In this document: positions 1,171 through 17,078 of the stretch, piece after piece
Layout: every line of letters begins with the position of its first letter
How positions within the stretch are numbered: the first letter of the stretch is position 1
NCBI RefSeq assembly: GCF_036287215.1
Contig: NZ_CP142860.1
Span: 1,674,001-1,738,000, forward strand
Direction: 5' to 3'
Source of the DNA: Caproiciproducens sp. CPB-2
GTDB taxonomy: Bacteria > Bacillota > Clostridia > Oscillospirales > Acutalibacteraceae
Length of the DNA: 64,000 nt
Notes under the pieces: model-generated
What the model was told of the DNA's origin: nothing
Database searches by the model: none
Seen by the model: the letters and a program-made list of their open reading frames with translations, nothing else
Position numbers and translations under genes: made by a program

Positions 1171-1199
1171 TTGTAATTGCTTTTTTATGGTGATATAAT
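1171..1199 (+). promoter_or_regulatory. Promoter for the 1353 gene
   Basis: TTGTAA (1171) and TATAAT (1194) have a 17-base spacer, and the TGA just before the -10 box makes it an extended -10. The leader to the start codon at 1353 is about 145 bases. Apart from this promoter and the one facing the other way, the 345-base gap 1008-1352 shows nothing recognisable. Confidence 0.6.
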
Positions 1200-1352
1200 A
1201 AAAAACAATCCGTTTGGTGAGGAAGGGGGGCTTGGCATTTTTAGTTCTATGCTCCCGGCGATAGAAAGTTATGGTTATACGTTTAAAATATTAAAAATAA
1301 AAACATGTATGTTATATTGAGTAAGGTTTATACAACAGACGGCAGGAGGACA

Positions 1353-1958: not shown

Positions 1959-2011
1959 ATTATTGTACTTTCACTGAATACTTAATTAATAAAATCAGAT
2001 GCTGAAAAGCA

Positions 2012-2049
2012 CAAAAACCCGTCAAACGTAAGTTTGGACGGGTTTTTGT
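2012..2049. terminator. Bidirectional rho-independent terminator
   Basis: A run of A, a stem pairing CCCGTCaAAC with GTTTgGACGGG, and a run of T lie between two convergent genes (ends at 1958 and 2072). It can serve both strands. Confidence 0.9.
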
Positions 2050-2071
2050 TTGCGGCTTCAATCGTCTGGAT

Positions 2072-2449: not shown

Positions 2450-2550
2450 TTTTTCATCCTCCATATTTCGTCAAATTCCTTGCTGATTGTCACACATCAC
2501 ACAAATTTTGTATCGTTTTAATATTACATGCAGCAAACAATAAAGTCAAT

Positions 2551-2586
2551 AAAAATTTAGCCCTCCCGATCATAGCGGGAGGGCTT
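2551..2586 (-). terminator. Terminator of the 2595-2936 gene
   Basis: A 10-bp GC-rich stem (AGCCCTCCCG with CGGGAGGGCT) and 7-base loop is followed on the minus strand by a T-rich stretch. Confidence 0.9.
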
Positions 2587-2594
2587 ACGTTGAT

Positions 2595-2936
2595 TTATAC
2601 GGTAATATCAAGCAGATGATCGCTTAGAGAAGTGACAGAATCTCCGATCCGGTTGCCCGCTTGTGCGGTATCAGTCATTTGCGTTTCCTGTGCCTTTTTA
2701 TTCGCTTCATTTTGCAGCTGCTGAATTTGCTGCTGAATCTGGGAAATCTGCTGTTGAAGCAGAGCCTTCTGCTCCTGAATCTGATCGGAATCCTGCCCGG
2801 AGGAATCGGTATCCAATTCGGTAAGCTCCTGCTGCAGTTGTTTTTCCTGCGCTCTTAATTTGCTGATTTCGCTTTGATTGCCGGTACCCGATGTCGCGGT
2901 GTAGCTGCTGATGCCTGAAACCGCCGAAATGCTCAT
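2595..2936 (-). CDS. FlxA-like coiled-coil protein
   Basis: This 113-aa protein has a Ser/Thr-rich N-terminus (about 1-20), then a long Gln/Leu heptad region (about 22-85) that should form a coiled coil, and a short tail. Composition and length match FlxA-like proteins (PF14282), which in enterobacteria are under flagellar control but whose role in clostridia is unclear. No flagellar genes are near. Its own promoter was not identified; a terminator follows directly after its stop. Confidence 0.75.
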   Translation of the reverse strand: MSISAVSGISSYTATSGTGNQSEISKLRAQEKQLQQELTELDTDSSGQDSDQIQEQKALLQQQISQIQQQIQQLQNEANKKAQETQMTDTAQAGNRIGDSVTSLSDHLLDITV

Positions 2937-3092
2937 AATGAATCACTGTCCTTTATATTGATAAATTTTCCTCTTATGAATGATATCGGTACCTTCACAT
3001 GGAAATGAATGCTTTTTATGAAATTTAAGTTTGGTTTATGTTTCGATGGTATCAGGCAGAGGGGAGGGCTTTACAAAGTTACAGATAATACA

Positions 3093-3143
3093 AAAACCCC
3101 GCTAAAACCAAGTGTTATCACCCACAGGTACAACTACTGAACC
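3093..3143 (+). repeat. About 50-bp repeat, left copy (inverted relative to 15408-15457)
   Basis: The first 16 bases (AAAACCCCGCTAAAAC) are identical to the reverse complement of 15442-15457. The match continues with one gap through GTTA, CACAGG, ACA and TGAACC; about three quarters of 51 positions agree. Candidate end of a mobile element. Confidence 0.65.
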
Positions 3144-3260
3144 GAGGGGTAACCGGTACGAGGCAACAAGAAAGTAGACATTTATTCACGATTATGTGAG
3201 CAGATGTCTGCTTTTTTGTTGTAAATTTTATTCACGAGGCTCTGCACAGGTTGAATTTGA

Positions 3261-3446
3261 GAGCATACGGTCGCTAAGTTGACAAACCAGCTCAAGAAAT
3301 ACCGTGACGATCTCAAGTGTGTTGCTGGGATCAAGGTGCGCAGTGAACATATGAAAGAGAACATAAAGCTAATTGCCGAAGAAAAACAACTCGCTGCTGA
3401 TCAGATTGGCAAGAAGAAAAGCAAAGCACGAGGCTGCGAACGGTGA
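3261..3446 (+). pseudogene. Gene remnant, unrecognised
   Basis: An open frame of 61 codons begins right after a TGA and has no usable start with a ribosome site. The peptide has real-protein composition: helical, Lys/Glu/Leu-rich, with LKKYRDDLK and IAEEKQLAADQIGKK, and resembles a coiled-coil C-terminal tail. It lies just inside the left repeat, which suits decayed mobile DNA. I cannot name the parent family. Confidence 0.4.
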
Positions 3447-3539
3447 AAAGTAAAGAAGCTTTGCCTATTTCCCAATATTGCAAGTCAAACCCTGTACGAT
3501 CATCATCTTCAAGCTGGCCTTGATTTAAACAGAAAATTT

Positions 3540-3725
3540 TTAGCCAACCATCGTTATTATATTGCTGTTTGAGAGATATGCATATTCTATGGCTTCAGGA
3601 GCAGTATCGTTTGCTTCAGCTACCCGGTTTTCGTTATTTGTAGTCTGAACTACAATTTTACCAGCCGCAAAAGTTGCATGGTTTTGCTTTTGATTACTAT
3701 GTTTTCCTTTTCTATAAAGTGTAAA
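3540..3725 (-). pseudogene. Coding-like C-terminal fragment, unrecognised
   Basis: On the minus strand 61 codons run from a TAA to a TAA without a start codon. The peptide (HATFAAGKIVVQTTNNENR and TAPEAIEYAYLSNSN) has the mixed composition of a real globular protein end rather than of chance AT-rich translation. It is probably the 3-prime end of a gene whose front was lost. No homolog recognised. Confidence 0.35.
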
Positions 3726-3777
3726 TTAATCATTTTAAGGGATAATAATAACAAAAAGACTCCAAGGTGGTGGGTAG

Positions 3778-5571
3778 ATGAGTGTTATTTCGGTCATAAA
3801 AAATATTGTTATATACAAAGAACCAAAAAATAATGAACGGTTTGAATTGCTTGAGGATGAGCAAGAGGATATGGTAAACGGCGAAGCGCCTGAAACATCA
3901 GAAACGGCCGCACAAAACTTCAATGAAAATGAGGAGAACATCCTTCATCAGCCGTCGAAAAATATAATGCAGACGCTCAAAAGAGTAATGAAGCATAAGA
4001 AGCAGGAAGAAGCTCCAAAAGCAACAAACGACGCAAAAGCAGAGCAAAATCAAGACAGTTACAATAATGTGTCTAAAGATCTGAAGAAAAACTTACAAAA
4101 AATGAAGCAGGAATTTCATTTCCCTACCAATCAAGATATTGTCATCAGGGAATTTAAAGTAGTGCAGAAAAGTAATGCCTTTATTGTGTATATTGACGGT
4201 ATGGTCGATAAGAACACCATAAACGATTATATTCTGCGTCAGTTGATGGCAGAGCAAAAAAACAACAAAAACACGAAAATAAGTGTTGATTATATCACAG
4301 ATAATCTTCTTGCAATTAACCAGGTTATTAGGCAGACAGATTATGAGGAAATTATCAAGCAGATACTAAACGGCCTTACCGCACTTTTTGTTGAAGGTAA
4401 TCAAGAATGTGTTCTCATCGAAAGCCGCGGATATGAAAAAAGAAGTGTTTCCACGCCGTTAGACGAATCGGTAATCAAGGGGCCCCAAGAGGCATTTACT
4501 GAGAATCTGCGCACAAATTTGACATTAGTACGTAAAATCATTAAAAATAAAGACCTTGTTACCGAGATGATGCCTATGGGGAAGGCAGAAAATACAACCT
4601 GTGCGATTATGCATATTAAGGGTATCACCAATCCCAAAATTGTGCAGGAAGTAAAAAGAAGGATTGGCAGCATCAATATTGATTTTATAGCGGGGGATGG
4701 TGGATTAGACCAACTGATTGAGGATCACCCTTTTTCTCTGTTCCCTCAAATACTAAGCACCGAGCGACCCGATAAAACGGCATCCTTTTTAATAGATGGA
4801 AAGGTCGCCATTATCTGTGATGGCTCACCTTATGCAAGTATAGCCCCGATAACATTTTTTCGTTTTTTCCACACCTCTGAGGATACAATTCTTCGTTGGC
4901 AATTTGGTACATTTTTGAGGCTTATTAGGATGGTTGCCGCCTTTTTGGCAACATTTTTACCCGGGCTTTTCGTTGCCCTTACTTTATATCATCAGGAGAT
5001 GATTCCCACCGAACTTCTATTTTCACTTTCGAGGGCAAGAGAAAATATCCCCATCCCTTCAATATTGGAACTTCTGGTCATGGAGTTATTCTTCGAGCTT
5101 ATGCGGGAAGCAGGTGTACGGTTACCTGGGGCTATTGGCCAAACCTTAGGCATTATCGGCGCTATTATCCTGGGTTCAGCGGCTGTTGCCGCAGGTATTG
5201 TGAGCCCTATATTAATTATGGTTGTCTCAATTACCGGATTGTGCAGCTTTGCAATTCCTAATTATAGCATAGCATTTGGGGTCAGGATAACGAGGTTTAT
5301 ATTTTTTTTCTTTGGTGCGATTGCGGGCTTTTACGGTATTGCGGCGGGTATTTTCATTTTTGGCGGTCTTGCCTGCTCCATGAAATCCTTTGGTGTGCCA
5401 TACTTCAGCCCTGTTGCACCTAAAACGAAAGCAAATCATGATATTGGTATCATGGCACCTCCTTGGACGCTCAAAGAAAGACCGGACTTTCTTAATACAA
5501 ACAACAGGAAAAGAACGAGCGGCACAGTGCGGGGCTGGATACAGCAAGCTAACAGAGGTAACGGCAAATGA
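3778..5571 (+). CDS. Spore germination protein, GerA family (A subunit)
   Basis: This 597-aa protein is the A subunit of a nutrient germinant receptor in the spore inner membrane. It has a long charged, Lys/Gln/Glu-rich N-terminus (about 1-110), the soluble GerA domain (about 115-370, with VYIDGMVDK and PLFSLFPQ-like segments) and about five membrane segments after residue 370 (VAAFLATFLPGLFVALTLY, the PTELLFSLSRARE loop, LGIIGAIILGSAAVAAGIV). Length is slightly above the usual 480-550 because of the N-terminal extension. The ATG at 3778 follows AAGGTGGTGG. It is first in a tight operon with B, C and a small fourth gene, overlapping the next by four bases. The germinant is unknown. Confidence 0.93.
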   Translation: MSVISVIKNIVIYKEPKNNERFELLEDEQEDMVNGEAPETSETAAQNFNENEENILHQPSKNIMQTLKRVMKHKKQEEAPKATNDAKAEQNQDSYNNVSKDLKKNLQKMKQEFHFPTNQDIVIREFKVVQKSNAFIVYIDGMVDKNTINDYILRQLMAEQKNNKNTKISVDYITDNLLAINQVIRQTDYEEIIKQILNGLTALFVEGNQECVLIESRGYEKRSVSTPLDESVIKGPQEAFTENLRTNLTLVRKIIKNKDLVTEMMPMGKAENTTCAIMHIKGITNPKIVQEVKRRIGSINIDFIAGDGGLDQLIEDHPFSLFPQILSTERPDKTASFLIDGKVAIICDGSPYASIAPITFFRFFHTSEDTILRWQFGTFLRLIRMVAAFLATFLPGLFVALTLYHQEMIPTELLFSLSRARENIPIPSILELLVMELFFELMREAGVRLPGAIGQTLGIIGAIILGSAAVAAGIVSPILIMVVSITGLCSFAIPNYSIAFGVRITRFIFFFFGAIAGFYGIAAGIFIFGGLACSMKSFGVPYFSPVAPKTKANHDIGIMAPPWTLKERPDFLNTNNRKRTSGTVRGWIQQANRGNGK

Positions 5572-6665
5572 TTAAAGAGGGAAAATTCGGTGTTCAGGAA
5601 GCCGTATGCCTTATCACGGTAACAATAACTTCTAAAGTTTTTTTCTCAAGCCCGGCAATAATTGCAGGGCTTATAGGCAACACAGGTTGGTATACTACTT
5701 TAATTTCAGCTGCGGTTGCTCTTGTAGGTTTCTGCTTTATTTATTTACTATTGAAGCGTTTCCCGGGCAAAGACATCGTGGAAATATTTGATACAGCCTT
5801 AGGACGAGTTGTTGGATTTATCTTTTCGGGGATATTAGGAATATACATGCTTTTTATTTCTGTTACCAGAGTAAATGAATTATCGGAATTTCTTAAGGTT
5901 TACGTTATTCCTCTAAGTCCCAACTGGCTCATTATCGGTATTTTTATTACTTGCATTTTTACTCTTTCTTTGTTGGGCTTAGAGAGTATTGCAAGGCTTT
6001 CAAAGCTTTTAATATATGCCTTGTTAGCCGGTTTTTTAGTCGTACTGCTTCTGGGTATACAGAATTATAATATTAATAACTTGTTCCCCATCCTTGGATA
6101 TGGATTAGATAAAATTGCTTTTCAAGGTATTGTAAGAAGTTCTGTTTACGGTGAAGTGATTATACTCGCGATATTTGCTAAATCCTTTCAGGGTGTTAAG
6201 TTTATAAAAAAAGAGGGCATAACCGGTATTTTGCTGTCTGCTGCGATTATTTCTGTATCGGGTCTTTCTTATTCATTGACTTTTCCGTATTACGTAGCCC
6301 AAGAAATAACCGCGCCTATGTATGCGATGTCAACACTTATTGATTATGGAAGGTTTATGCAGAGAGTTGAGCCATTATTTTTGTATGTATGGATTATCGG
6401 CAGTTTTATATCGGCATCCTTGGTTTTCTATTCGTTCATATGGATATTCTGTAAAACATTTAGAATACAGGACAAAAAGCCAATCATAATCGGCAGTTGT
6501 ACTATCCTTTATGCAACCGCTTTAATGCACAAGGATATCATATCCATAATTTTGGGGTACGTTGTGCTGATAAGAAATTTTGGTTCATTGCCGCTATTTG
6601 TATTGCCCTTGATAGCCTTGATTGCAGCATTGATCAGGAAAAAAGGAGGCAATTTGAATGCGTAA
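5568..6665 (+). CDS. Spore germination protein, GerB family permease-like subunit
   Basis: This 365-aa protein has about ten hydrophobic segments and is the B subunit (APC-superfamily spore permease fold) that forms the ligand-binding part of germinant receptors in known systems. It starts with the typical short polar stretch and then TVTITSKVFFSSPAI; the family's usual length is 360-370. The ATG overlaps the stop of the A gene by four bases and its own end overlaps the C gene by eight, so stoichiometric expression is expected. Confidence 0.93.
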   Translation: MIKEGKFGVQEAVCLITVTITSKVFFSSPAIIAGLIGNTGWYTTLISAAVALVGFCFIYLLLKRFPGKDIVEIFDTALGRVVGFIFSGILGIYMLFISVTRVNELSEFLKVYVIPLSPNWLIIGIFITCIFTLSLLGLESIARLSKLLIYALLAGFLVVLLLGIQNYNINNLFPILGYGLDKIAFQGIVRSSVYGEVIILAIFAKSFQGVKFIKKEGITGILLSAAIISVSGLSYSLTFPYYVAQEITAPMYAMSTLIDYGRFMQRVEPLFLYVWIIGSFISASLVFYSFIWIFCKTFRIQDKKPIIIGSCTILYATALMHKDIISIILGYVVLIRNFGSLPLFVLPLIALIAALIRKKGGNLNA

Positions 6666-7956
6666 GGTAATCATCCTATTGATTTTAGGCACTTTTCTGC
6701 TAAGTTTAACAGCTTGCTATGATGCTCACGAAATGGACGATATGCTGTATGTTGTTACCATAGGAGTAGATAAGGGGATATCCGACAAATGGCGATTAAC
6801 GATACAGTTTCCCACCATGAAAGAAGGCGGAGGACAGACACAATCCGGCAGTGGCGGCGGCGGGCAGTCACAATCCGGCAGCGGCGGAGATGAGCAGAGT
6901 GGGCACAGTTATGCTTCTATTGACGCGCCCTCGTTCTTTACAGGCATCGACATGTTAAATGCTTCCTTGCCAAGAAAGCTTAATTTCACACACACGCAGA
7001 TTATTGTGTTTTCTGAAGAGCTGGCTAGAGAAGGGCTGATCGGGGAATATATAGCGCCCTTAAGCAGATTCCGTGAGATACGCAGAAGCGCCCATGTATT
7101 TGTTGTGAAGGGGAAAGCTATAGATTTTTTAAAGGAGAATAAGCCTGTGATTGGGACGACTATATCAAAAAGTTTTCAAGTGCTTACACATGCAAGTGAA
7201 AATATCGGTTTTTTCCCACACACTACACTTGAGAACTTCTATGAAGGCCTCAAGTCTCCCTACGGTCAGGCCATTGCAGCTATGGCCTCGGTAAATGATT
7301 CAAAAAGTTTTGCTGAGAACGGTGAACCTTGGGGGACAAAATTTAAAACAGGAGGAGACTATTTTGCAGGCCAGCTTCCGCGAACCGGCCAAAATAAAAT
7401 TGAGGTATGGGGTACTGCATTATTTAACGGCGATAAGATGGTGGGTGAACTGAACGGGGATGAGACCCGGTTTTTGCTCATGATACGAGGCGAGTTCAAG
7501 CAAGGCTCCTTTACAATGCAAGACCCCCAAAAACCCGAACTGATTATACCTTTGGATGTTAGAGTCTCTAAAAAGCCCCAAATTGATATAGATATTAAAG
7601 ATAAAAAGCCTGTTATTCGGCTCAAGGTTCAACTGGATGCGGATTTACTTGCCGTACAGAGCATGATAAATTACGAACAACCAGAACTTCAGTCACTATT
7701 GGAAGAGACCTTTAAGAAAAGCGTAGAAGAAGGAATCACAATGCTTATAAAAAAATGCCAGGGTTTAAATACTGATGTTTTTCATTTTGGTGACTATGCC
7801 GCGAAAAACTTTTTAACCATTGATGCATTTGAAAGCTATGATTGGAACAGACATTTTAAAGAAGCTGAAGTGATTGTCGATGTCAACTTTGCTATCCGTA
7901 GGACTGGAACGCAAATAAAAAGCTACCCTATAAAAGATCCGATAGGAGTGAATTAG
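6658..7956 (+). CDS. Spore germination lipoprotein, GerC family
   Basis: This 432-aa protein is the C subunit of the receptor. It has a lipoprotein signal (hydrophobic residues 3-18, then LTAC with Cys21 as the likely lipidated residue), the N-terminal DDMLYVVTIGVDKG motif common in GerC, and the C-terminal GerAC domain (about 235-430). Between the N-terminal strands lies a Gly/Ser/Gln-rich insert (about residues 57-82) made of repeated QSGSGG units, which is unusual. Coupled to the B gene by overlap and directly followed by a small membrane gene. Confidence 0.93.
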   Translation: MRKVIILLILGTFLLSLTACYDAHEMDDMLYVVTIGVDKGISDKWRLTIQFPTMKEGGGQTQSGSGGGGQSQSGSGGDEQSGHSYASIDAPSFFTGIDMLNASLPRKLNFTHTQIIVFSEELAREGLIGEYIAPLSRFREIRRSAHVFVVKGKAIDFLKENKPVIGTTISKSFQVLTHASENIGFFPHTTLENFYEGLKSPYGQAIAAMASVNDSKSFAENGEPWGTKFKTGGDYFAGQLPRTGQNKIEVWGTALFNGDKMVGELNGDETRFLLMIRGEFKQGSFTMQDPQKPELIIPLDVRVSKKPQIDIDIKDKKPVIRLKVQLDADLLAVQSMINYEQPELQSLLEETFKKSVEEGITMLIKKCQGLNTDVFHFGDYAAKNFLTIDAFESYDWNRHFKEAEVIVDVNFAIRRTGTQIKSYPIKDPIGVN

Positions 7957-8130
7957 ATGAAGTATATTATAGTTGTGCTTCTGTTTGCCGAATTGATTTA
8001 TCTGTTAAGTTTCGCTAAATATAACTGGGTAAAAAAGAATCGGCTTGCGGCAATAGGTTCGGCAATTATTGGCCTTGCGGCTTTTGCGCTTCCACTTTTT
8101 TTGATTTTCTTTGGGCAATATGAGTTATAA
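7957..8130 (+). CDS. Small two-helix membrane protein, probable germinant-receptor D subunit
   Basis: This 57-aa gene starts on the base after the gerC stop. It codes for two hydrophobic helices (about residues 3-17 and 30-50) separated by a short basic turn (KYNWVKKNR). Some gerA-type operons in Bacillus carry a small fourth gene of this form (D subunits such as GerKD and GerUD, which modulate receptor function). Position, size and topology match that role; sequence identity was not tested. A GATAGGAGTGA ribosome site lies inside the end of gerC. GC content rises sharply immediately after its stop. Confidence 0.75.
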   Translation: MKYIIVVLLFAELIYLLSFAKYNWVKKNRLAAIGSAIIGLAAFALPLFLIFFGQYEL

Positions 8131-8131
8131 C

Positions 8132-8353
8132 GCGGATGTTAACGCAGGAAACGGTTCGGATTCTACTCTGCCGGTCACCGTTGATAAAAAAAGCGGCAGG
8201 GTAGGCGTGGACGTCGACGCGGGCAATGGACTCATGTCTGATGGAAAAACCACCGTTATTACAGTACCGTCCGTCCCCGACGTCGATACTTATATGCTGG
8301 GCATCCCTGTTTCAAGTCTGTCAAGAGAGAGACGCTGTTCACACAAGGGGTAA
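8132..8353 (+). pseudogene. Internal fragment of a secreted or S-layer-like repeat protein
   Basis: From 8132 one frame reads about 64 residues of regular, Val/Asp/Gly/Thr-rich beta-type sequence (VTVDKKSGRVGVDVDAGNG, then TTVITVPSVPDVDTY). This is what the middle of a clostridial surface protein with SLH or Ig-like parts looks like. It has no start of its own; the frame merely runs on from an ATG inside the small ger gene, and it ends in a terminator hairpin. It is much more GC-rich than the ger genes. I read it as a broken piece at the edge of the mobilizable module. The rest of the 440-base gap (8371-8571) shows no gene. Confidence 0.45.
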
Positions 8354-8370
8354 CGTCTCTCTCTTATTCT
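8323..8370 (+). terminator. Rho-independent terminator
   Basis: A 12-bp stem (AAGAGAGAGACG with CGTCTCTCTCTT) is followed by ATTCTTCT. It is the first strong terminator after the ger operon, so ger transcripts may run through the fragment at 8132. Confidence 0.75.
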
Positions 8371-8571
8371 TCTACAATAAGCTCGACCTTAGCTTCAACG
8401 CTGTTATTGAGCAACATCCACACCGCTATCCTGTTGGTGATACACTTTGCCTGTCGGAAAGGCTGAAACGGAGAATCAGATTGAAAAGATGAATATTCAG
8501 GATTTAGAATAATAAAGTAGCTTTACGAATGATTCTGTGCTATGCTGTGTCGCTGAAGGGAGGCGGTACGC

Positions 8572-8886
8572 ATGGACAACATCCTGAAAACGCTGTACGA
8601 CCATTTCTACCGATTGCCAGAATTCACCCCGCAGGAAGCGAGAATCACAGAAAACCATCAATTATTGCGACAGCGGCTGAGCAGCCGAAATCGCAAACTG
8701 GTTCTACGGATCATGGATGACAAAGATCTGATCTGTTCGGACGTTTCGCTGGACAGCTTCATTTGCGGATTCTGGCTGGCGTGGCAGATTGCAAATCAAA
8801 TACAAAATTACGACGGGTGTTCGGAGTGCAGCCAAAGAGCTGAACCGGACGCCCGTCTTGTATTTTCAAAGGAGGCAGTCAAATGA
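8572..8886 (+). CDS. Small mobile-element accessory protein (DUF6809-like)
   Basis: This 104-aa soluble protein begins MDNILKTLYDHFYRL and has the SLDSFICGFWLAWQIA segment typical of short proteins carried by clostridial mobilizable elements. Their role is unknown. The ATG follows GGGAGGCGG. Its TGA overlaps the ATG of the next gene (ATGA). The C-terminal part after residue 80 differs in character and may have been altered. Confidence 0.55.
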   Translation: MDNILKTLYDHFYRLPEFTPQEARITENHQLLRQRLSSRNRKLVLRIMDDKDLICSDVSLDSFICGFWLAWQIANQIQNYDGCSECSQRAEPDARLVFSKEAVK

Positions 8887-9561
8887 AGAAGAAAATTATC
8901 CTCGTAGTAGCCATTATCACCTGTGTCGCGCTATGTACCGCTGTGTGGCCTTGGAGCTTCGAAGTCGGGGATTTACCCATTGAGCCAATAAAACCCGCCG
9001 TAATCGCCGAAATTGAGGCGCGGGCAGAAGAAACACCACAGATTTTTCTCTCTGCCGATATTCCTGCTCCTGAACAGGAGGCTGTCGCAGAAAGTGAACC
9101 GCAGAAAACTGATATAACGGCAGAAAAAGAAATACAAAAGCCTGCGCCAACACAGCAAACACAAACTCATAAGCTGTCTCCATCATCCTCTGAGCCGCAC
9201 ATGGGAGATGTTCGCGTCGTAAACAGCGAGAAGCAGACTTACATCGACGGCTTTGGCTGGATAGAGGACCACAGCAGTGAGGGCGGCGGCACAACTGTCG
9301 GAAACCCGGGCGACGAGCTCACCGGCAACAAGGTAGGGCAGATGGGCGGTACGACTGGCGATGGCAAGGGCGACATCAATAAGCAGGTCGTGCGTCATGG
9401 GCGGCGGAGAATCCTCGACGCCGAGAGAAACAACCCCTCCGCCCGCAGAACAGCCGGAACGGACCGGCGATGTCATATACATCGAGATGATGCCAACACC
9501 CACAAAGGACAGCACCCCGCCGCCATATAAGCCGAACACAACACTTCCAACGAACCTGTAA
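8883..9561 (+). pseudogene. Exported mobile-element protein (DUF6550-like), frameshifted near 9390
   Basis: The gene starts at ATG 8883 after AAAGGAGG. It has a signal peptide or anchor (about residues 3-22), a Pro/Glu/Gln-rich stretch and the conserved-looking block YIDGFGWIEDHSSEGG plus GNKVGQMGG. From about 9390 this frame turns into Arg-rich nonsense (RRRILDAERNN), while the +1 frame reads a coherent Pro-rich tail (TTPPPAEQPERTGDVIYIE and STPPPYKPNTT) to a stop at 9559-9561. One indel between about 9380 and 9420 explains both. Such proteins occur with Rep/Mob genes of integrated elements; function unknown. Confidence 0.6.
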
Positions 9562-9571
9562 GACACTGAAA

Positions 9572-9612
9572 TAGCGCACTCAGCCCCGACTGACCGAGTG
9601 CGCTGTTTCTTT
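9572..9612 (+). terminator. Rho-independent terminator
   Basis: AGCGCACTC pairs with GAGTGCGCT and is followed by GTTTCTTT; it closes the 8572-9561 pair. Confidence 0.8.
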
Positions 9613-9712
9613 CTGCTGTTCGTATTCGTAAGGTTTTGAAGCTGTTAGCTACATTCTATCTGTTCGGCTTCGATGGATTTGGTACGATGCCGACGAACTA
9701 TGAACCCTGTTC

Positions 9713-9742
9713 TTTACGCCGCTTGCGCCTCCATGATATAAT
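9713..9742 (+). promoter_or_regulatory. Promoter for the 9776 gene
   Basis: TTTACG (9713) and TATAAT (9737) are 18 bases apart, with TGA before the -10 box. The start codon is 34 bases downstream of the -10 box. Confidence 0.55.
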
Positions 9743-9775
9743 TTCATCAAAAGCTGTCAAAAGCGAGGTGACTCC

Positions 9776-10612
9776 GTGAAAAAGAAGAAAAGGACGCTGC
9801 TTGACCTTGACCATATTCCAACGCTCGATGAGTTGCGCGCGTACTTTAAGGAAAATGATTTCTCAGCGGCGACATATGTAGACGTCGATTATGAAACGAT
9901 GGACGCCGAAAGCGTTGAAGCTCTTGAATACATAAAAGGTCTGATGGACGAGAAATGGGAGCCGCTATCGCGTGAGATGGGCTTGAAGTCCGACTCGTCA
10001 TATTACGGAAAGGACAATCCGCTGATTGCTATGTGTAATAACATGGAAAGCCTCGTCGCCGGCGGCGTGATGAAGCTCCTTAATGAAAAGCCTGAAGTGG
10101 CTGCCGAAATTCTGGATCACTTTTTTCAAGACCCTGACGTGGAACAACACGCCGACGACTTTTTGAATAATGCTGTGAAAACGGCAATGCAGGTCATGAA
10201 CTACGAGGAACTCGCGCAGGTCGTTCAGGATAACGCCGCATACGAGGACTTCAATCACGATAAATTCGACAACTACCGCTCCAAGGATTTTGACCGTAAA
10301 TGGAATCATACTCGCTCAAAAACCGAAACCGTCTCGTTTAACGAGATGGAGGATACCGTAAACGGCGAGGGAGAAAGCTCTCCGGTGCAGGTTGCGGACA
10401 CCTCTGTAAACGTAGAGGATGAAGTCATCACTCACCTGACCGGCAAAACCTTTTGGGACAGCATCTCTGATGACGACAGAACGCTTCTTAGAATGAGGAT
10501 GAGCGGCAAGACCCAGCAGGAGATTGCCGATACGCTCGGCTACAAAACGCACAGCGCCGTCACCAAACGGCTGCAAAAGCTGAAAGAGATATTTGAAAAC
10601 AGCGATCAATGA
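9776..10612 (+). CDS. Element-borne protein with C-terminal sigma-70-like HTH
   Basis: This 278-aa protein has an acidic N-terminal two thirds without recognised motifs and a C-terminal helix-turn-helix (about 225-275: LLRMRMSGKTQQEIADTLG followed by SAVTKRLQKLKEI) like region 4 of sigma factors or phage-type regulators. It probably binds DNA and controls the mobilizable module or acts in its replication. The start is GTG 9776, with GAGGTGA four bases before it. It stands alone between terminators. Function inferred only from the HTH. Confidence 0.65.
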   Translation: MKKKKRTLLDLDHIPTLDELRAYFKENDFSAATYVDVDYETMDAESVEALEYIKGLMDEKWEPLSREMGLKSDSSYYGKDNPLIAMCNNMESLVAGGVMKLLNEKPEVAAEILDHFFQDPDVEQHADDFLNNAVKTAMQVMNYEELAQVVQDNAAYEDFNHDKFDNYRSKDFDRKWNHTRSKTETVSFNEMEDTVNGEGESSPVQVADTSVNVEDEVITHLTGKTFWDSISDDDRTLLRMRMSGKTQQEIADTLGYKTHSAVTKRLQKLKEIFENSDQ

Positions 10613-10617
10613 ATGAT

Positions 10618-10652
10618 GTGCCTGTCGATGTGTTCGGCAGGCATATTTTTTT
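10618..10652 (+). terminator. Rho-independent terminator
   Basis: TGCCTG pairs with CAGGCA across a 13-base loop, then ATATTTTTTT. Confidence 0.75.
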
Positions 10653-10730
10653 GAAAATATTTTTTATCCGAAGGAACAATTTGTTTTCCTTATGTCGTAA
10701 GGAGGTAAGAGGAAAACACAATAAACGATG

Positions 10731-10758
10731 AGCATCCGTCGAAAGGCGGGTGCTTTTT
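10731..10758 (+). terminator. Hairpin with T-run upstream of the Rep-like gene
   Basis: AGCATCCG pairs with CGGGTGCT (one G-T), followed by TTTTT, only 46 bases before the TTG start at 10804. It looks like an attenuator for the rep-mob operon or the end of a short leader RNA that contains AAGGAGGTAAGAGG. Confidence 0.55.
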
Positions 10759-10803
10759 CTGTTGCGCGTTTTCCAAAATAAATACGAACAGGAGGAAAAC
10801 AAC

Positions 10804-11994
10804 TTGAACAACGAAACCAAAAAGAAAGGGAAGCTGTGCTTTGACACCATCGACGGCGCGACGCTGATGAGCACGCCGCTCCAACCGCTTATCTTCGTGG
10901 TGGACTCGCTCATCTCGCAGGGGCTTCATGTCCTCGTGGGTTCTCCAAAGGTCGGCAAGTCGTGGCTGGCGCTATGGCTGTCGGTCACGGTGGCGAAGGG
11001 CGAGCTGGTCTGGGGTATGCAGACACGGCAGGGCACGACGCTCTATCTCTGTCTTGAGGACAGCAGGCTCCGTATTCAGAACCGGCTGTTTGGAATCATG
11101 GAGGACGCACCACCCATCGTTCACTTCTGCACCGACGCCTTCATCATCGGCGGTGGTCTGGAGGAACGCATCGAAACCTTTATCGGCGAGCATCCCGATA
11201 CCGTTCTCATCATCATTGACACGCTGCAGATGGTGAGAGGCACGGGCTACGACAACACTTACGCAAACGACTACCGTGACCTGTCGATTCTGAAAAAGCT
11301 GGCGGACAAGCATGGCGTCGCTATCCTGCTTATCCATCATCTTCGCAAGGAGGGCGCCGACGATGTGTTCAATCGCATCTCAGGTACGACGGGCGTCCAA
11401 GGCGCTGTGGATTCCAGCTTCACGCTCATCGAGGACAAGCGCGGCAGCGGCAAGGCAAAGCTCTCCTGCATCGGCAGGGATATCGAGTACAGAGAAATCT
11501 GTCTTGAGCGCAACGAGGATAACGTCTGGGAGATGGTGTCGGGCAGCCGTGAGCAGCCGGAGCTTTTGGGCGACGCCATTATTTCTCTTCTCTCTGCATT
11601 TATGAAATCCGCTCCTCGCTTCATCGGCACTCCGACTGAGTTGGCAGATAAGCTGTTCAGTCAGAGCGGCGAGAAGATATCGCCGAAGAAAATATCCCAG
11701 CGTATTCTTCAGAATGCTGATGCGCTCATGAACGCGGGAATCACCTTCGACATCCGGCGCAGTAACGGCAAACGTCTCATCGAGCTTCACCGTGCCGATG
11801 GTGACGATAGTGCCGATACCCCGGATACCCCGAATATCGTCCCTGTCGACCCTGTATGCGGGGCCTTGGATGCGGAAGCTCTCCCCTTGGGAGAGGCAAG
11901 CAAAGCGTCCGGCTATACGCCGGCCACTTTAAGCGGGGCGCTGCCCCACACCCCAGTGACGAAAGGAGTACGATATGAAAAAACAGAAGGATAA
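10804..11994 (+). CDS. RepA/RecA-like AAA ATPase of the mobilizable module
   Basis: This 396-aa protein has the hexameric RecA-like helicase core of RepA-type replication proteins: Walker A GSPKVGKS (about residue 45), acidic strand VLIIIDTLQM (Walker B, about 135-145), and LLIHHLRKEG with the GTTGVQGAVDS segment. The C-terminal 100 residues are variable and Pro-rich. It likely unwinds DNA for replication or transfer of the element. The start is TTG 10804 because GGAGG lies eight bases upstream; the longer frame has no ribosome site. It overlaps mobC by 20 bases. The end of the gene contains several inverted repeats that may be the transfer origin. Confidence 0.8.
   Translation: MNNETKKKGKLCFDTIDGATLMSTPLQPLIFVVDSLISQGLHVLVGSPKVGKSWLALWLSVTVAKGELVWGMQTRQGTTLYLCLEDSRLRIQNRLFGIMEDAPPIVHFCTDAFIIGGGLEERIETFIGEHPDTVLIIIDTLQMVRGTGYDNTYANDYRDLSILKKLADKHGVAILLIHHLRKEGADDVFNRISGTTGVQGAVDSSFTLIEDKRGSGKAKLSCIGRDIEYREICLERNEDNVWEMVSGSREQPELLGDAIISLLSAFMKSAPRFIGTPTELADKLFSQSGEKISPKKISQRILQNADALMNAGITFDIRRSNGKRLIELHRADGDDSADTPDTPNIVPVDPVCGALDAEALPLGEASKASGYTPATLSGALPHTPVTKGVRYEKTEG
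11871..11960 (+). other. Candidate origin of transfer (oriT)
   Basis: Three close inverted repeats lie in the 3-prime end of the Rep gene just before mobC: CTCTCCC/GGGAGAG (11879-11895), GGC/GCC around 11911, and GGGGC/GCCCC (11935-11947). MOBP elements often have oriT beside the relaxase accessory gene. Inference from position only. Confidence 0.3.
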
Positions 11995-12286
11995 AACCTA
12001 TGCGTTCCGAGTCAGTTCCGCTGACCTGAATAAGATAAAAATCAACGCCAAACGAGCCAAACTGACCATTACCGATTACCTCACGGCCTCTGCGCTGAAC
12101 AAAGAGATTACTGTCGTTGATGGATTGGAATCGCTGGTGCCGGAGTTGAAAGCCCAGGGGAGAAACCTGAATCAGCTGACCACCCTCGCTCACATGGGCA
12201 GGGTCTATCCGGAACAGATTGACCGCCTCACCGATGCCTACGGCGATATATTCTCGGCGCTCAAAAAAATTCTGGAGGTGAAGTGA
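11975..12286 (+). CDS. mobC: Mobilization accessory protein MobC
   Basis: This 103-aa basic N-terminal, helical protein has the MobC-family pattern: an RVSSADLNKIKINAKRAKLT segment like a ribbon-helix-helix, TDYLTASALNKEI, and near the end LNQLTTLAHMGRVY. MobC proteins bind oriT and help the relaxase open DNA. The ATG at 11975 follows AAAGGAG. Its TGA overlaps the relaxase ATG, so both are made together. Confidence 0.85.
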   Translation: MKKQKDKTYAFRVSSADLNKIKINAKRAKLTITDYLTASALNKEITVVDGLESLVPELKAQGRNLNQLTTLAHMGRVYPEQIDRLTDAYGDIFSALKKILEVK

Positions 12287-13305
12287 TGGCGACCTTTACC
12301 CGAGTAAAAGTGAAAAAGCAGTCCTGCGGACGGATGCTTGGTGCGCTTGCCTATGTGCTTCGGGATAAGAAAGTCCGCTTTGATGGCGACAGAGTGGAAA
12401 GCGGCGTCAACTGCACTCCCTACACCAGCTACCTTGAGATGATGGCGACGAAGCAGATGTTCAAAAAAACATCTGACGTTTGCTTCTTTCATTTCGTTCA
12501 TTCTTTCTCGGATAAGGAGAAGATCACGCCATGGCAGGCAAATGAGATTGCCCGCGAGCTTGCCGAAAAGCTGTTCCCAAATTACGAGTGCGTCATCGCC
12601 ACCCACTCCGATACCGACAACATCCACTCGCATATCATAGTCAACTCGGTTAGCTTCAAAGACGGGAAGAAGCTGCACCTGTCGCCCACCTCCATCGAGG
12701 AGCAGCGGCAGGTCAACGACCAGATCTGCATGGCGCATGGCTTCTCCGTACTGGAACCCTACACCGGGCAGAAAAGAAAAAAGCGTCTGACACCCGGCGA
12801 GTACCGCGCCGCCGAGCGAGGCGAGAGCTGGAAGTTCCGTCTGATGAAAGCCATCGATGAGGCTCTGGAATACTCCCGCACCCGTATGGATTTCATCACA
12901 AATATGGAGTACGAGGGCTATGAGGTGCGCTGGGACGATACGCACAAATACATTCTGTTTGTCACGCCGGATGGCTGCAAGTGCCGTGACCGGAGCCTGC
13001 ATGACGACACCTATCTCAAGGAAAACCTTGAAAAACTGTTTGAATACCGCACGGTGCATGGTTTTACACCTCAGACCCCGGAGCCGCCCGAGGGCTGGCT
13101 GTCGCAGATGTATACGGCTGAAAATGTTCTTTCCGATGCCGTCCGGCTGGGCAAAAGCATTGAGAATATTGGGGATGTACCGCCTCCGCTCCAGCCTTCC
13201 GTCTTTACCGACAGCAAGCAGCGTCAGCGTGAAGCCCTCAAAAAGCTATCGCAGGGGCACAAGCTCCAGAGCGAGCAGGAGCAGGATATGAACCTGACAA
13301 TGTAA
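12286..13305 (+). CDS. MOBP-type relaxase / mobilization nuclease
   Basis: This 339-aa protein nicks the transferred strand at oriT. The relaxase domain fills the first about 160 residues; the histidine motif HSDTDNIHSHIIVNS (about 107-121) supplies the metal ligands, and GALAYVLRDKK near the N-terminus should carry the catalytic region. The C-terminal half (KKRLTPGEYRAAERGESWK onward) matches the usual layout of Firmicutes relaxases on small mobilizable elements. It lacks coupling protein and type IV secretion genes nearby, so it must use another element's transfer machinery. Start ATG 12286 overlaps the mobC stop. Confidence 0.9.
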   Translation: MATFTRVKVKKQSCGRMLGALAYVLRDKKVRFDGDRVESGVNCTPYTSYLEMMATKQMFKKTSDVCFFHFVHSFSDKEKITPWQANEIARELAEKLFPNYECVIATHSDTDNIHSHIIVNSVSFKDGKKLHLSPTSIEEQRQVNDQICMAHGFSVLEPYTGQKRKKRLTPGEYRAAERGESWKFRLMKAIDEALEYSRTRMDFITNMEYEGYEVRWDDTHKYILFVTPDGCKCRDRSLHDDTYLKENLEKLFEYRTVHGFTPQTPEPPEGWLSQMYTAENVLSDAVRLGKSIENIGDVPPPLQPSVFTDSKQRQREALKKLSQGHKLQSEQEQDMNLTM

Positions 13306-13328
13306 CCCGTAAGGGAGAAAGGATACCT

Positions 13329-13622
13329 ATGGACAGAGAAAAAATGATCTCACAGCACTACCTGAAGACAGGAATCCTCGGGGCTTACGAAACCGCCGAG
13401 GTCATGCATGAGGAAGAAGAAAACGGGAAATACGCTCCCTGCTTTGAGGATGCCACCGTCTTTTTTGGCAAAACACAGACCACAACCAACCGATCCATGT
13501 GCATCGAGGGCAGGCAGTATCGCGTCTGTTCGGTGTTCCCGGCAGTCACTGAGCACACACCCACGGACAAGTTGCTTGCCCTAATCGACACCGAGCTTGA
13601 AAAAGAAACGCACAGTGCCTGA
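13329..13622 (+). CDS. Hypothetical protein of the mobilizable module, 97 aa
   Basis: A short soluble, acidic protein with no motif that I recognise. It starts MDREKMISQHYLKTG after AAGGGAGAAAGG and sits 23 bases behind the relaxase, ahead of the recombinase. Similar-sized proteins are commonly found at this place in serine-recombinase elements. A hairpin separates it from the recombinase. Confidence 0.65.
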   Translation: MDREKMISQHYLKTGILGAYETAEVMHEEEENGKYAPCFEDATVFFGKTQTTTNRSMCIEGRQYRVCSVFPAVTEHTPTDKLLALIDTELEKETHSA

Positions 13623-13642
13623 ATTCAATAGACTTGCGGAAG

Positions 13643-13673
13643 CCGGTGCGGTATGATGTGGTTACCGTACCGG
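13643..13673 (+). promoter_or_regulatory. Hairpin upstream of the recombinase gene
   Basis: CCGGTGCGGTA pairs with TACCGTACCGG (one G-U) across a 9-base loop, 32 bases before the recombinase ATG. There is no true T-run, so an RNA control element or protein site is as likely as a terminator. Confidence 0.45.
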
Positions 13674-13704
13674 TTTGCCTCAAAAGAAGGAGGTTTAATA
13701 AAAG

Positions 13705-15357
13705 ATGGCAAACCCAAAATACAACATACTTTATGGCAGGCTCAGCCAGGAGGACGAACTCAAGGGCGACTCCAACAGCATTCAGAACCAGAGAATGCTC
13801 CTTGAAAAATATGCACAGGAAAACGGCTTCGTCAACGTAAAATTCCTGTACGACGACGGTTACTCGGGCACCAATTTCAACCGTCCGGCGTGGAGTGAAA
13901 TAATGAAGTTGATCGAAAGCAGCGAGGTCGAAACCCTCATTGTAAAAGACCTTTCGAGGCTGGGACGCGAATATCTGCAGGTAGGTTATTACACGGAAAT
14001 CTACTTTCCTCAACAGGGCGTCCGCTTTATTGCGGTCAACGACGGCGTCGATTCGCTTTACTCGGAAACCAATGATTTTACTCCGATGCGCAATTATTTC
14101 AACGAGCTCTACGCCAAGGACTCCAGCAAAAAGGTGCGCATTGTGAAACGGGCTCAGGCTGAACGCGGCGAGCTTCTCGGCGGCAAACCGCCCTACGGCT
14201 ACAAAAGGGATGAAACAGTCCGCAAGGGAATCGTACCAGACGAGGAAGCAGCGGGAGTTGTGAAGCGCATCTTCGCCCTCTGCGCCGAAGGAAAAGGCCC
14301 GAACCAGATCGCAAGGCTGCTGACAAAGGAGCAGGTGCTCACGCCGAGCAATTATAGCTACAGGAAAACAGGAGTCTCTCACGCAGAATTGGATACAACC
14401 AGACCATACAGCTGGTGCGGCAGCTCGGTTACCGGAATCCTTGACAACAAAACCTACCTCGGGCACATGGCGGGCCTGCGCTCCACGACGTTGTCCTACA
14501 AGAACAAGAAGCTCATTCGGCACCCGGAATCGGAGCAGATTCTGGTGGAGAATACCCATGAGCCGCTGATCACCCAGGAGCTGTGGGACATCGTGCAGGA
14601 GGTCCGCAAGCATAAGAAACGGACGCCAAAGCAGATGGAAGAGCCGAATATGTTCTCGGGACTGGTGTATTGCGCTGACTGCGGGAAGCCGTTGGTGCTC
14701 CACAGGGCGCACACGATGAAGGCGACTCAGAACAATTTTATGTGCTACACCTACAAAAAGAAGGGCAAGGAGGTCTGCTCGGCTCACTATATCCGTGAGC
14801 AGGACTTGACGAGGATCATACTTGACGACCTACGCAGGGTTACTCACTTCGCGAGACAGAAGGAAAGGCTGTTTGCCGAGTACATCAACCAGAAAAACAG
14901 CGTAGAGCTTCGCCGGGAGATCAATACCGTGCAGAAGGAGCTGGATTCCATGCGTCGCAGGAACGCTGATCTGACGGCGCTTTTCAAGAGGCTTTATGAG
15001 GATAACGTGTTGGGGCGCGTCACCAACGAGCAGTTCCGCATCCTCTCCGGCGACTACAACGCCGAGCAAAAGGAACTCTCGGCAGCCATCCCCGAGAAAG
15101 AATCCCGACTGGAGAAGCTCAAGGCTTCCGCCGCCAACGTGGACGCATTTATTGAGAAAGCTAAGCGGTACACAGAAATCCAAGAGCTCACGCCGGAAAT
15201 TCTGAGGTTGTTCATCAGCCGGATTGAGGTCGGCGAACGCGGTGAGAAATACTCCCGCACCGCCGAACAGAGCATCCGCATCATCTACCGCGACGTTGGT
15301 GTTATGGACAGCGTGGAGCCGGTCGAAGAAAATATGGAACAAGAATACATTGCATAG
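13705..15357 (+). CDS. Large serine recombinase (TnpX/resolvase family)
   Basis: This 550-aa protein should catalyse excision and integration of the element. The N-terminal resolvase domain shows YGRLSQEDE with the likely nucleophile Ser14, and LIVKDLSRLGRE with catalytic arginines near residue 80. Then come the recombinase domain (about 160-270, GKPPYGYKRD), a zinc ribbon (CADCGKPLVLHR with later Cys residues around 345-360) and a coiled-coil/DUF4368-like C-terminus. ATG 13705 has AAGGAGG upstream. It lies about 100 bases from the right end of the element, the usual place for such recombinases, and reads toward tRNA-Thr. Confidence 0.92.
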   Translation: MANPKYNILYGRLSQEDELKGDSNSIQNQRMLLEKYAQENGFVNVKFLYDDGYSGTNFNRPAWSEIMKLIESSEVETLIVKDLSRLGREYLQVGYYTEIYFPQQGVRFIAVNDGVDSLYSETNDFTPMRNYFNELYAKDSSKKVRIVKRAQAERGELLGGKPPYGYKRDETVRKGIVPDEEAAGVVKRIFALCAEGKGPNQIARLLTKEQVLTPSNYSYRKTGVSHAELDTTRPYSWCGSSVTGILDNKTYLGHMAGLRSTTLSYKNKKLIRHPESEQILVENTHEPLITQELWDIVQEVRKHKKRTPKQMEEPNMFSGLVYCADCGKPLVLHRAHTMKATQNNFMCYTYKKKGKEVCSAHYIREQDLTRIILDDLRRVTHFARQKERLFAEYINQKNSVELRREINTVQKELDSMRRRNADLTALFKRLYEDNVLGRVTNEQFRILSGDYNAEQKELSAAIPEKESRLEKLKASAANVDAFIEKAKRYTEIQELTPEILRLFISRIEVGERGEKYSRTAEQSIRIIYRDVGVMDSVEPVEENMEQEYIA

Positions 15358-15366
15358 AAAGCGCAT

Positions 15367-15394
15367 GAGGCGGACGACTTTCGCCGTCCGCCTC
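15367..15394 (+). terminator. Perfect hairpin after the recombinase
   Basis: GAGGCGGACG pairs with CGTCCGCCTC ten bases after the stop. No T-run follows, so termination strength is uncertain. Confidence 0.55.
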
Positions 15395-15407
15395 TACATA
15401 CAAGACT

Positions 15408-15457
15408 GGTTCAAAACATGTCCCTGTGAACGCTAACAGAAGTTTTAGCGGGGTTTT
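15408..15457 (-). repeat. About 50-bp repeat, right copy
   Basis: Inverted partner of 3093-3143, identical over 16 bases at the outer end. It ends one base before the CCA end of tRNA-Thr. Together with the recombinase it marks the probable right end of the mobile element. Confidence 0.65.
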
Positions 15458-15458
15458 A

Positions 15459-15534
15459 TGGAGCTGCTAATGCGATTCGAACGCATGACCTCATCCTTAC
15501 CAAGGATGTGCTCTGCCAACTGAGCCATAGCAGC
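15459..15534 (-). tRNA. tRNA-Thr (anticodon GGT)
   Basis: A full cloverleaf of 76 bases with encoded CCA. Acceptor arm GCTGCTA/TAGCAGC, anticodon loop TTGGTAA on stem CATCC/GGATG, T-arm GTTCGAATC. The probable element end abuts its 3-prime side. Confidence 0.97.
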
Positions 15535-15537
15535 AAA

Positions 15538-15614
15538 TGGCGACTCGGATCGGGATCGAACCGACGACCTCTAGCGTGACAGGCTAGCGTTCTAACCAGC
15601 TGAACTACCGAGCC
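15538..15614 (-). tRNA. tRNA-Asp (anticodon GTC)
   Basis: A 77-base cloverleaf with encoded CCA. Acceptor GGCTCGG, anticodon loop CTGTCAC on stem CTAGC/GCTAG, T-arm GGTTCGATCCC. Three bases from tRNA-Thr, so co-transcribed. Confidence 0.97.
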
Positions 15615-15637
15615 ATTTACCGTGGACAACGAATATC

Positions 15638-15666
15638 ATTATACTGAAAAGGCCGTTACTTGTCAA
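15638..15666 (-). promoter_or_regulatory. Promoter of the tRNA-Asp/tRNA-Thr operon
   Basis: On the minus strand TTGACA (15666-15661), 17 bases, TATAAT (15643-15638); both boxes are perfect consensus. Confidence 0.9.
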
Positions 15667-15737
15667 CAGATAAACGACAAAAAAATAATAATTTTTTATT
15701 TGACAAACCTTCCCCGGAAAATCGGGGAGAGTTCCCG

Positions 15738-17078
15738 CTATTCCTGCTTGATTGCGGTCAGCGCGCTGATTTTGACGGCCCGGTTCGCAGGATGAAAACC
15801 GGAAACCAGGCCGACCATGGTGGAGAAGACAAGTGCGCCCAGCGCCAGCCAGACCGGAATGATGGAAATCTGAACGGCGGCGCCTCCGGTTCCCATTGCG
15901 TCTCCGCCGCCCGCGCTCTGCGCGGCGTACAGGGTGTTGATCAGAAAAGAGATCGCGTAACTCTGCGCAATCCCGATGGCGCCGCCCATAAACCCGATGG
16001 CTCCGGCTTCAACCAGAAACATGGTGCGGATATTCCGAACGACACAGCCGAGCACCTTCATGATCCCGATTTCACGGGTTCTTTCGTAGATGGACATAAT
16101 CATGGTGTTTGTAATCCCCAGAGCCGCCACCAAAAGCGAGATCGCGCCAAGGCCGCCCAGAATCATCTGAATGGTTCTCATCTGCTCCTCAAGCGGTTTT
16201 CGGACGCTTTCCATGCTGTAGGTGGAGAATCCCATATCCTGTATTGCCTTCTCCGCGGCCGGGACAGCCTCAACGGAAGCGACCTTTACGCTTGCACTGT
16301 CGTATCCGTCTTTTTTGTTGGGGTCCTTTTTGATATTGTTCAGCTTGTTGTATTTATCCCGAAGCTGCTTCGCAAGGGTGACATCCATAAAAACGGAATG
16401 GCTGGGGGAAGGGTCCTTTCCCCAGTCTTCCATTAGAGTACCGACGCATTGAAGCTTGACCGGCTTGGCTTTCGCGGTGGAGTCCTCCGGCAGGCTGATC
16501 TCGGCCTGGAATTTGTCGGTGAGGGCGGAAACATAAGGGTCGGGCATCTTTCCGTTTTTATCTGCCTGGGGAAAAATCATGTTGTTGCTGGATTTCCGGC
16601 TGTCGATAAAATCGTATTCCGCGTCTTTGCCAAACAGAATGGTCGTTTCCGGGGCTCCTTCCGCCGGGAGCGTTCCGGCTTCCGCCTGATACCCGAATTC
16701 TTTCAGAGCGCTCATCGAAACGCCGTAAATCATTCCCTGATAGCTGTATTTCCGGCTTTTAATGGTGACAGCGGAAGGGTCAAGGTAAAAGACGGGAGTG
16801 ACGGCCACGACATCCTTCATGGCTTTTACATTTTCCAGTGCTTTGTCGTCCAGCGCCGCCGAATCCGGAGTCTGGGAGTCATTCTTGATCGTGATGACCG
16901 TCAGGTCGCCCATGTTCTGCATCATGGTTTCCATGGACTGCTTAATTCCGATGCCAAACGACATCATGACGACGATGGCGCAGGTCCCGATCACAACGCC
17001 CATCACCGTCAGAAGGGTTCGGACCTTGCGTTTGAACAGATTGCCGAGCGCCATTGAAAGCATGTCTTTCCATTTCAT
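15738..17078 (-). CDS. ABC transporter permease, MacB/FtsX family
   Basis: This 446-aa permease has a membrane segment at about 18-45 (VRTLLTVMGVVIGTCAIVVM), a large extracytoplasmic MacB-type periplasmic-core domain (about 50-300) and three C-terminal membrane segments of the FtsX domain (about 310-435, with the YERTREIGIMKVLGC coupling helix). Such permeases export peptides or act as mechanotransmission complexes. Its start overlaps the stop of the 17075-18865 gene by four bases, and it is last in the operon ATPase - exported protein - permease. Confidence 0.9.
   Translation of the reverse strand: MKWKDMLSMALGNLFKRKVRTLLTVMGVVIGTCAIVVMMSFGIGIKQSMETMMQNMGDLTVITIKNDSQTPDSAALDDKALENVKAMKDVVAVTPVFYLDPSAVTIKSRKYSYQGMIYGVSMSALKEFGYQAEAGTLPAEGAPETTILFGKDAEYDFIDSRKSSNNMIFPQADKNGKMPDPYVSALTDKFQAEISLPEDSTAKAKPVKLQCVGTLMEDWGKDPSPSHSVFMDVTLAKQLRDKYNKLNNIKKDPNKKDGYDSASVKVASVEAVPAAEKAIQDMGFSTYSMESVRKPLEEQMRTIQMILGGLGAISLLVAALGITNTMIMSIYERTREIGIMKVLGCVVRNIRTMFLVEAGAIGFMGGAIGIAQSYAISFLINTLYAAQSAGGGDAMGTGGAAVQISIIPVWLALGALVFSTMVGLVSGFHPANRAVKISALTAIKQE

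Follow-up and report, generated by a model that had tools for sequence, protein, structure and literature searches.

Can a complete spore-germination receptor operon travel as the cargo of a mobilizable element and, if so, where does that element begin and end? The question is raised by 64,000 nt of the Caproiciproducens sp. CPB-2 genome (assembly GCF_036287215.1, contig NZ_CP142860.1, positions 1,674,001 to 1,738,000; hereafter the window, numbered from its first letter), in which a sequence-only reading had placed a germination-receptor operon and a mobilization module between two inverted copies of a repeat of about 50 bp. We find that the 12,330 bp at 3112-15441 are a single large serine recombinase (LSR) insertion, the features of which are collected in Table 1.

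Table 1. Features of the inserted element and of its target in the window (L and G numbers denote other loci and genomes).
Feature	Position	Strand	Basis
Left terminator arm behind tRNA-Thr (attB half, target DNA)	3093..3109	+	Contiguous with right arm in G010; sole perfect partner 15442-15457
Likely crossover dinucleotide AA, left copy (attL)	3110..3111	.	Common to 7 left and 7 right ends
attP half-site P-prime, element left end	3112..3160	+	Similar left ends in six other genomes
gerA, 597 aa	3778..5571	+	PF03323, E 3e-174
gerB, spore permease, 365 aa	5568..6665	+	PF03845; TIGR00912 above cut-off
gerC, 432 aa	6658..7956	+	PF05504, PF25198; TIGR02887 above cut-off
Small fourth ger gene, 57 aa	7957..8130	+	No Pfam match; behind gerC in relatives
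Relic like part of the SLH/InlB-repeat surface protein of the L076 cargo slot	8159..8311	+	44% over 52 positions, E 2e-6
DUF6809 protein, backbone	8572..8886	+	PF20648; 75% in Marasmitruncus element
DUF6550 protein, backbone	8883..9530	+	PF20187; present in L073 and L074
Sigma-like HTH protein, backbone	9776..10612	+	TIGR02937 below cut-off; 83-86% in L073/L074, 59% in L076
AAA_25 ATPase	10750..11994	+	PF13481
MobC/NikA-like relaxosome protein	11975..12286	+	PF21983; PF05713 just below cut-off
MobA/VirD2-type relaxase, 340 aa	12283..13305	+	PF03432, E 1.2e-35
97-aa protein between relaxase and LSR	13329..13622	+	73-87% in L072-L075; no Pfam match
LSR, 550 aa	13705..15357	+	PF00239, PF07508, PF13408, PF14287; 84-94% in five other genomes
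attP half-site P, element right end	15392..15439	-	blastn matches of L072, L073, L074 and L076 end at 15442; aligned
Likely crossover dinucleotide AA, right copy (attR)	15440..15441	.	Shared end of L075 and L091 reaches only to AA (by eye)
Right terminator arm (attB half, target DNA)	15442..15457	-	G010 empty site
tRNA-Thr (GGT), host gene with terminator as target	15459..15534	-	tRNA call

Among the 11 genomes of the genus, own included, the right-hand neighbour of the insertion (a permease) was present in eight (E <= 1e-30), and the left-hand neighbour (a glyoxalase-like gene) was matched in five, two of the matches being weak. In the congener G010 these two neighbours are 97% and 96% identical to those of the window and lie only ~950 bases apart; blastn joins window 1142-3117 directly to 15431-19064, with flanks 91% identical, and this is the empty site that had been predicted to join about 3092 to 15458. 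The G010 joint carries an unbroken terminator hairpin, CCCGCTAAAACCAAGTTTTAGCGGG, directly behind tRNA-Thr. Unbroken hairpins follow tRNA-Thr in all six congeners, own genome aside, with tRNA-Thr in the fetched stretch (that of G003 has no tRNA and was excluded from the count); those of G001, G002, G004, G007, and G008 are intact but different in sequence. The single true empty site of exactly the window's target comes from one species, G010, at 91% DNA identity. Among the congeners examined, none had an empty site bounded near 8131 and none had the window's ger operon at the same place, which includes both outcomes named beforehand as contrary to the proposal (the latter as an operon lacking the mobilization module). 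Because of this and of the G010 empty site, the ger operon most likely arrived within the recombinase element, as the sequence-only reading had supposed.

The repeat itself had to be reinterpreted. The 16-mer AAAACCCCGCTAAAAC is identical at 3093-3108 (+) and 15442-15457 (-), and nowhere else in the 64 kb of the window is it matched with fewer than three mismatches; one further place matches it with exactly three, and at that laxity three matches are reached in 3 of 100 shuffles. Its right copy stands one base short of tRNA-Thr and starts 84 bases past the LSR stop; a tRNA-Asp, also confirmed, lies beyond the tRNA-Thr. The inverted pair and its position against the tRNA and behind the recombinase were therefore as described, but the 16-mer does not form the element ends: because G010 has an intact hairpin at the joint, the perfect repeat is, on the evidence of that sequence, the two arms of a host terminator pushed 12.3 kb apart, and thus target DNA rather than element. 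An LSR is expected to leave the halves of an attP at both ends of its insertion, and the element itself ends in such attP half-sites, inverted and imperfectly matched, next to the terminator arms. Inward from the arms the two sides have a similar start (AAGTGTTATCACCCACAGGTACA; on the opposite strand, TTCTGTTAGCGTTCACAGGGACA), with agreement inward of the core at 16 of 24 positions, a level matched by 3 of 100,000 random inverted 24-mer pairs. The weaker similarity of the ~50-bp repeat beyond the 16-mer is thus real, but its perfect part belongs to the target. A half-site consensus has two window matches at <=2 mismatches, 3114-3132 (+) and 15419-15437 (-), both with none; since it was composed from the ends after they were seen, and shuffles average 1.08 matches at this setting with 30 of 100 reaching two, this is not an independent test.

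Seven left and seven right ends (the window and six further genomes each) were aligned and are similar, not identical, at unrelated sites with a core AA. Similar left ends occur in Marasmitruncus, L093, G060, G061, G064, and G482, and were not found in four of the 10 genomes searched (G001, the Pelotomaculum genome G063, G433, and G434); a hit in G065 (E 1e-4) was excluded as missing the half-site. On the right, blastn homology of L072, L073, L074, and L076 to the window ends at 15442, with unrelated DNA beyond. AA, which stands in attL, attR, and the attB of G010, is likely the crossover dinucleotide, because L075 and L091 by eye share the end only to AA; the L091 blastn match nevertheless continues to 15457, which is taken as a chance likeness of two terminator arms. 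By sequence, the element occupies the hairpin loop of the terminator that follows tRNA-Thr. A general rule that the target is always a terminator was rejected because only two of five reconstructed attB sites fold clearly relative to mononucleotide shuffles (window, z -5.1; L072, -3.9); folding was unclear for Marasmitruncus (-1.3), L076 (-1.1), and G061 (-1.8, from two contigs assumed to be one element). L093 adjoins the 3' side of rpsI and has one terminator-like arm, its right half lying outside the sequence seen.

Both ends enclose a GerA-type receptor operon with complete A, B, and C genes and the small fourth gene; Pfam identified GerA, Spore_permease (GerB), and both GerAC domains, in agreement with the initial description. 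The fourth gene also follows gerC in Marasmitruncus, in G177, and in nine of 20 fetched GerA stretches. The operon is not GerX, because the GerXA, GerXB, and GerXC equivalog models matched far below cut-off. A loose pattern found no sigma-G/F-like site in the 300 bases upstream of gerA. The stretch of ~600 bases that separates the left end from gerA (3160-3777) has no recognised gene; one short ORF was scanned there, with no Pfam match. Three further GerA genes occur in the CPB-2 genome, in 20-kb stretches without a backbone match (E <= 1e-5). Around 8130, GC shifts from 0.37-0.40 to 0.46-0.55; the change reported there is present but less sharp than described, as GC within the ger part varies between 0.35 and 0.46.

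The second half of the element bears out the proposed Rep-MobC-relaxase-recombinase module, with an AAA_25 ATPase that we take to be RepA/KaiC-like, a NikA-like protein (the MobC model falling just below cut-off), a MobA/VirD2-type relaxase, and the LSR. Of 14 element ORFs scanned with Pfam, nine matched a family and five did not, and no mating-pore family was among the nine. The insertion thus combines its own integrase (the LSR), a relaxase without mating-pore genes among the matched ORFs, defined attL and attR, and an empty site in a relative, as in an integrative mobilizable element (IME). The CPB-2 genome has 11 matches to the window LSR at E <= 0.001, the window LSR included.

An LSR scan of GTDB species genomes yielded 23 loci, the best five nearly full length and 84-94% identical, with L072, L073, L074, and L076 among these five. 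One of the related elements, in Marasmitruncus massiliensis (Oscillospiraceae), is the same element (13,736 bp), located near the end of an ABC-transporter gene whose joined flanks form one frame to the stop. It carries a complete four-gene ger operon between the left end and the backbone, inverted relative to the window, with products 64, 65, 64, and 58% identical to the window's (aa, tblastn), and a group II intron between the sigma-like and AAA_25 genes (L074 5454-6865; RVT_1 and GIIM in two ORFs). Elsewhere, the cargo slot holds an SLH surface protein (L072, and by eye a similar one in L075), an SLH/InlB-repeat protein and LuxR-type regulator (L076, in G064), DUF1848, YhcG nuclease, and LuxR/MalT-type regulator genes (L073, in G061; split over two contigs, the gap between them unseen), or, in L093, AraC-APH and DUF1016 genes. 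By eye, L072 and L075 share the same SLH-protein and LuxR-type regulator cargo in different genomes (Ch29 and Pelotomaculum sp.). GerA relatives occur somewhere in all seven related-element genomes, but one is seen between the ends only in Marasmitruncus; in G061, a GerA gene (38%; C15, 13444-14940) lies ~4.3 kb outside the left end of the related element on the same contig. In L091 (Oscillibacter valericigenes Sjm18-20), the LSR is split at 10300-12400 by two genes, by eye an IS21-type transposase and ATPase, and the right att end of this interrupted element is present. The congener G001 has a 74% LSR elsewhere, in a 20-kb stretch with relaxase, MobC, and DUF6809 matches and no ger match. Similar backbones and ends are thus present at different sites in other Clostridia, where the cargo differs; in Marasmitruncus it is a second kind of ger operon. 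Across 394 genomes drawn from the order, the window relaxase was matched at E <= 1e-120 only in the own genome, and GerA at E <= 1e-150 in two (own and G177), the 16-kb GerA stretch of G177 having no backbone match. In IMG/VR, the LSR search gave just two distant loci (31% and 29%), and three GerA stretches fit a pattern, none of them encoding a relative.

At class level, GerA was matched at E <= 1e-170 in 32 of 391 genomes, own included, and 20 GerA stretches, several of them short, were fetched from the 31 non-own genomes with a strong match. One, L154, is the left end of the window's element; the other 19 had no backbone match at E <= 1e-4, except L163, which has another LSR, and all such stretches are called non-mobile only as far as their contigs extend. 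L163 (G489:C7) carries at 1107-7479 a different GerA-type operon (GerA 51% identical) ~200 bases from its unrelated LSR, possibly another mobile ger operon. The best non-own GerA match, G482, is listed in the same class only, in another order, and there window 3087-5230 recurs at 97.3% DNA identity at another chromosomal site; the copy starts at the left att core and takes in the initial 1.45 kb of gerA, where the contig ends. That contig begins with 55 bases identical to the end of another G482 contig; this other contig and the first 358 bases of the copy-bearing one match G445, a congener of G482, at 73% and 80%, so that the start of the copy-bearing contig appears native to that genus as far as tested. 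No LSR match was found in G482 at E <= 1e-20, nor was the rest of the element.

In a quick GerA tree (126 rows, without L155), supported branches separated the window from Marasmitruncus. A second tree, built from GerABC, had 20 rows: the two elements, G177, and 17 of the fetched stretches (L154, L160, and L168 were omitted as their receptor genes are cut off). There the window paired with L155 with support of 100/100, and a clade uniting the window with Marasmitruncus was rejected (p-AU 9e-49; this test was run once the first tree was known). GerA, GerB, and GerC of the window are closer to L155 (72, 78, and 81%) than to Marasmitruncus (66% each). Because the trees place the two operons apart, ger was probably captured twice, once in each lineage. 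A single ancient capture would instead require a ger-bearing common ancestor, receptor genes diverging faster than the backbone, one inversion, and an element as the source of the chromosomal L155 copy; the L155 operon may indeed have left an element earlier, although its 13.9-kb contig has no backbone match. The two operons share their four genes, their slot, and one broad clade, as a single capture would predict, but the pairing with L155, the rejected clade, the opposite orientations, and the surface-protein relic at the window's cargo border all argue for separate events, and we consider one capture plausible yet unlikely. With respect to the relic, whose counterpart in L076 has SLH domains, the search at 8159-8311 covered three loci only; because this segment resembles part of that surface protein, ger seems to have replaced a surface-protein gene in the window lineage, in a slot between the left end and the DUF6809 gene that would have been refilled over time.

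From the gene content we infer a working receptor for some nutrient and an element able to excise and to be transferred with help. Recombination of attL with attR by the LSR would release a circular form of the element; a conjugative helper could then transfer it by means of the MobC and relaxase genes, together with the AAA_25 gene, and the LSR would insert the transferred element at a new site, where the new receptor, made in the forespore, would alter the set of nutrients triggering germination. The insertion might alternatively be a remnant that can no longer move, with ger now an ordinary acquired operon: its mobility is a prediction from sequence, an IME requires a helper, and the DUF6550 gene (stretch 8883-9561) looks frameshifted near its 3' end relative to the Marasmitruncus copy, its tblastn pieces lying in two frames. 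We regard such a remnant as rather improbable, given that open frames as long as those of relatives encode the LSR, relaxase, MobC, and AAA_25 proteins (the ger genes are open too), that both att halves are present, and that a 97% identical left part occurs in another order. Two events, in which a mobilization element landed beside a resident ger island, would fit the change of composition and divergence at about 8131 and the lower DNA identity to Marasmitruncus of ger (66%) than of the backbone (78-84%), but are highly improbable, as the two outer ends make up a single attP, the left end beside ger recurs in G060, G064, and G066 with GerA genes on other contigs, neither the left-end motif nor the half-site consensus has a further copy in the window, near 8131 or elsewhere, the Marasmitruncus ger also lies between the two ends, and G010 lacks both parts. 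Overall, the locus is thus very probably an LSR-driven IME with gerABC cargo, bounded by attP halves in the loop of the tRNA-Thr terminator and putatively mobile.

Several of these traits have precedents. Tn4451/Tn4453 are clostridial IMEs likewise described as having a serine integrase, recombination between 2-bp identical sequences, a relaxase, and low site specificity; for Tn4451, however, a MobV relaxase and chloramphenicol resistance as cargo are reported (PMC5704250), in contrast to the MobA/VirD2-like relaxase and gerABC cargo here. No MobV model was among the relaxase matches of the window element, for which PF03432 lay above cut-off and MobP-type NCBIfam models below. IME8 of Lysinibacillus sphaericus is also an IME with a spore-germination gene module, but differs in its tyrosine recombinases, its single specific target region, its host group, and its accompanying toxin genes, and no conjugative genes of its own are reported; TnXO1, as named in the same source, also has germination-associated genes on a mobile element, but is a class II transposon on a plasmid and not an LSR element (PMC13239906). 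A Tn1546-like transposon bearing spoVA2mob, gerKA, and ger(X)C likewise mobilizes spore genes, some for germination, but has tnpA/resolvase and was studied for heat resistance, and the passage describing it names gerKA and ger(X)C but no B gene (PMC5133452). Among gut mobile elements, serine-integrase IMEs occur mostly in Firmicutes, and mobile elements are enriched in sporulation genes, but the examples are spoVA, gpr, and spoIIP, the word "germination" being absent from the main text (PMC6907783); for Clostridium botulinum, horizontal transfer of ger clusters could not be excluded in a study of its germination genes (PMC5083711). Transposons and a tyrosine-recombinase IME with germination genes, as well as clostridial LSR IMEs, are thus already known from these descriptions (PMC13239906, PMC5133452, PMC5704250). 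Among the matches listed in our literature search, which covered few subscription journals, none was an LSR IME with a full gerABC operon or a case of repeated capture. The initial view that a ger receptor as serine-recombinase cargo would be notable therefore holds for this type of element, but not for germination genes on mobile DNA in general; what is new is an LSR-driven IME in Clostridia with probably repeated receptor capture.

With attP, the AA core, and a naturally empty attB all defined, the element lends itself to direct tests of transfer. Because a sister mobile DNA in another bacterium bears the same kind of cargo, our findings suggest that a spore-waking trait can pass between species. 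We are modestly inclined to go further and view this LSR element family of the Clostridia as a vehicle by which whole receptors were captured at least twice and moved between orders, making the germination cue horizontally exchangeable rather than a property of the species. Where a spore-former is able to grow is decided by the nutrients that wake its spores; should receptors travel as element cargo, germination specificity could jump between distant lineages in one step and would not be predictable from species identity.
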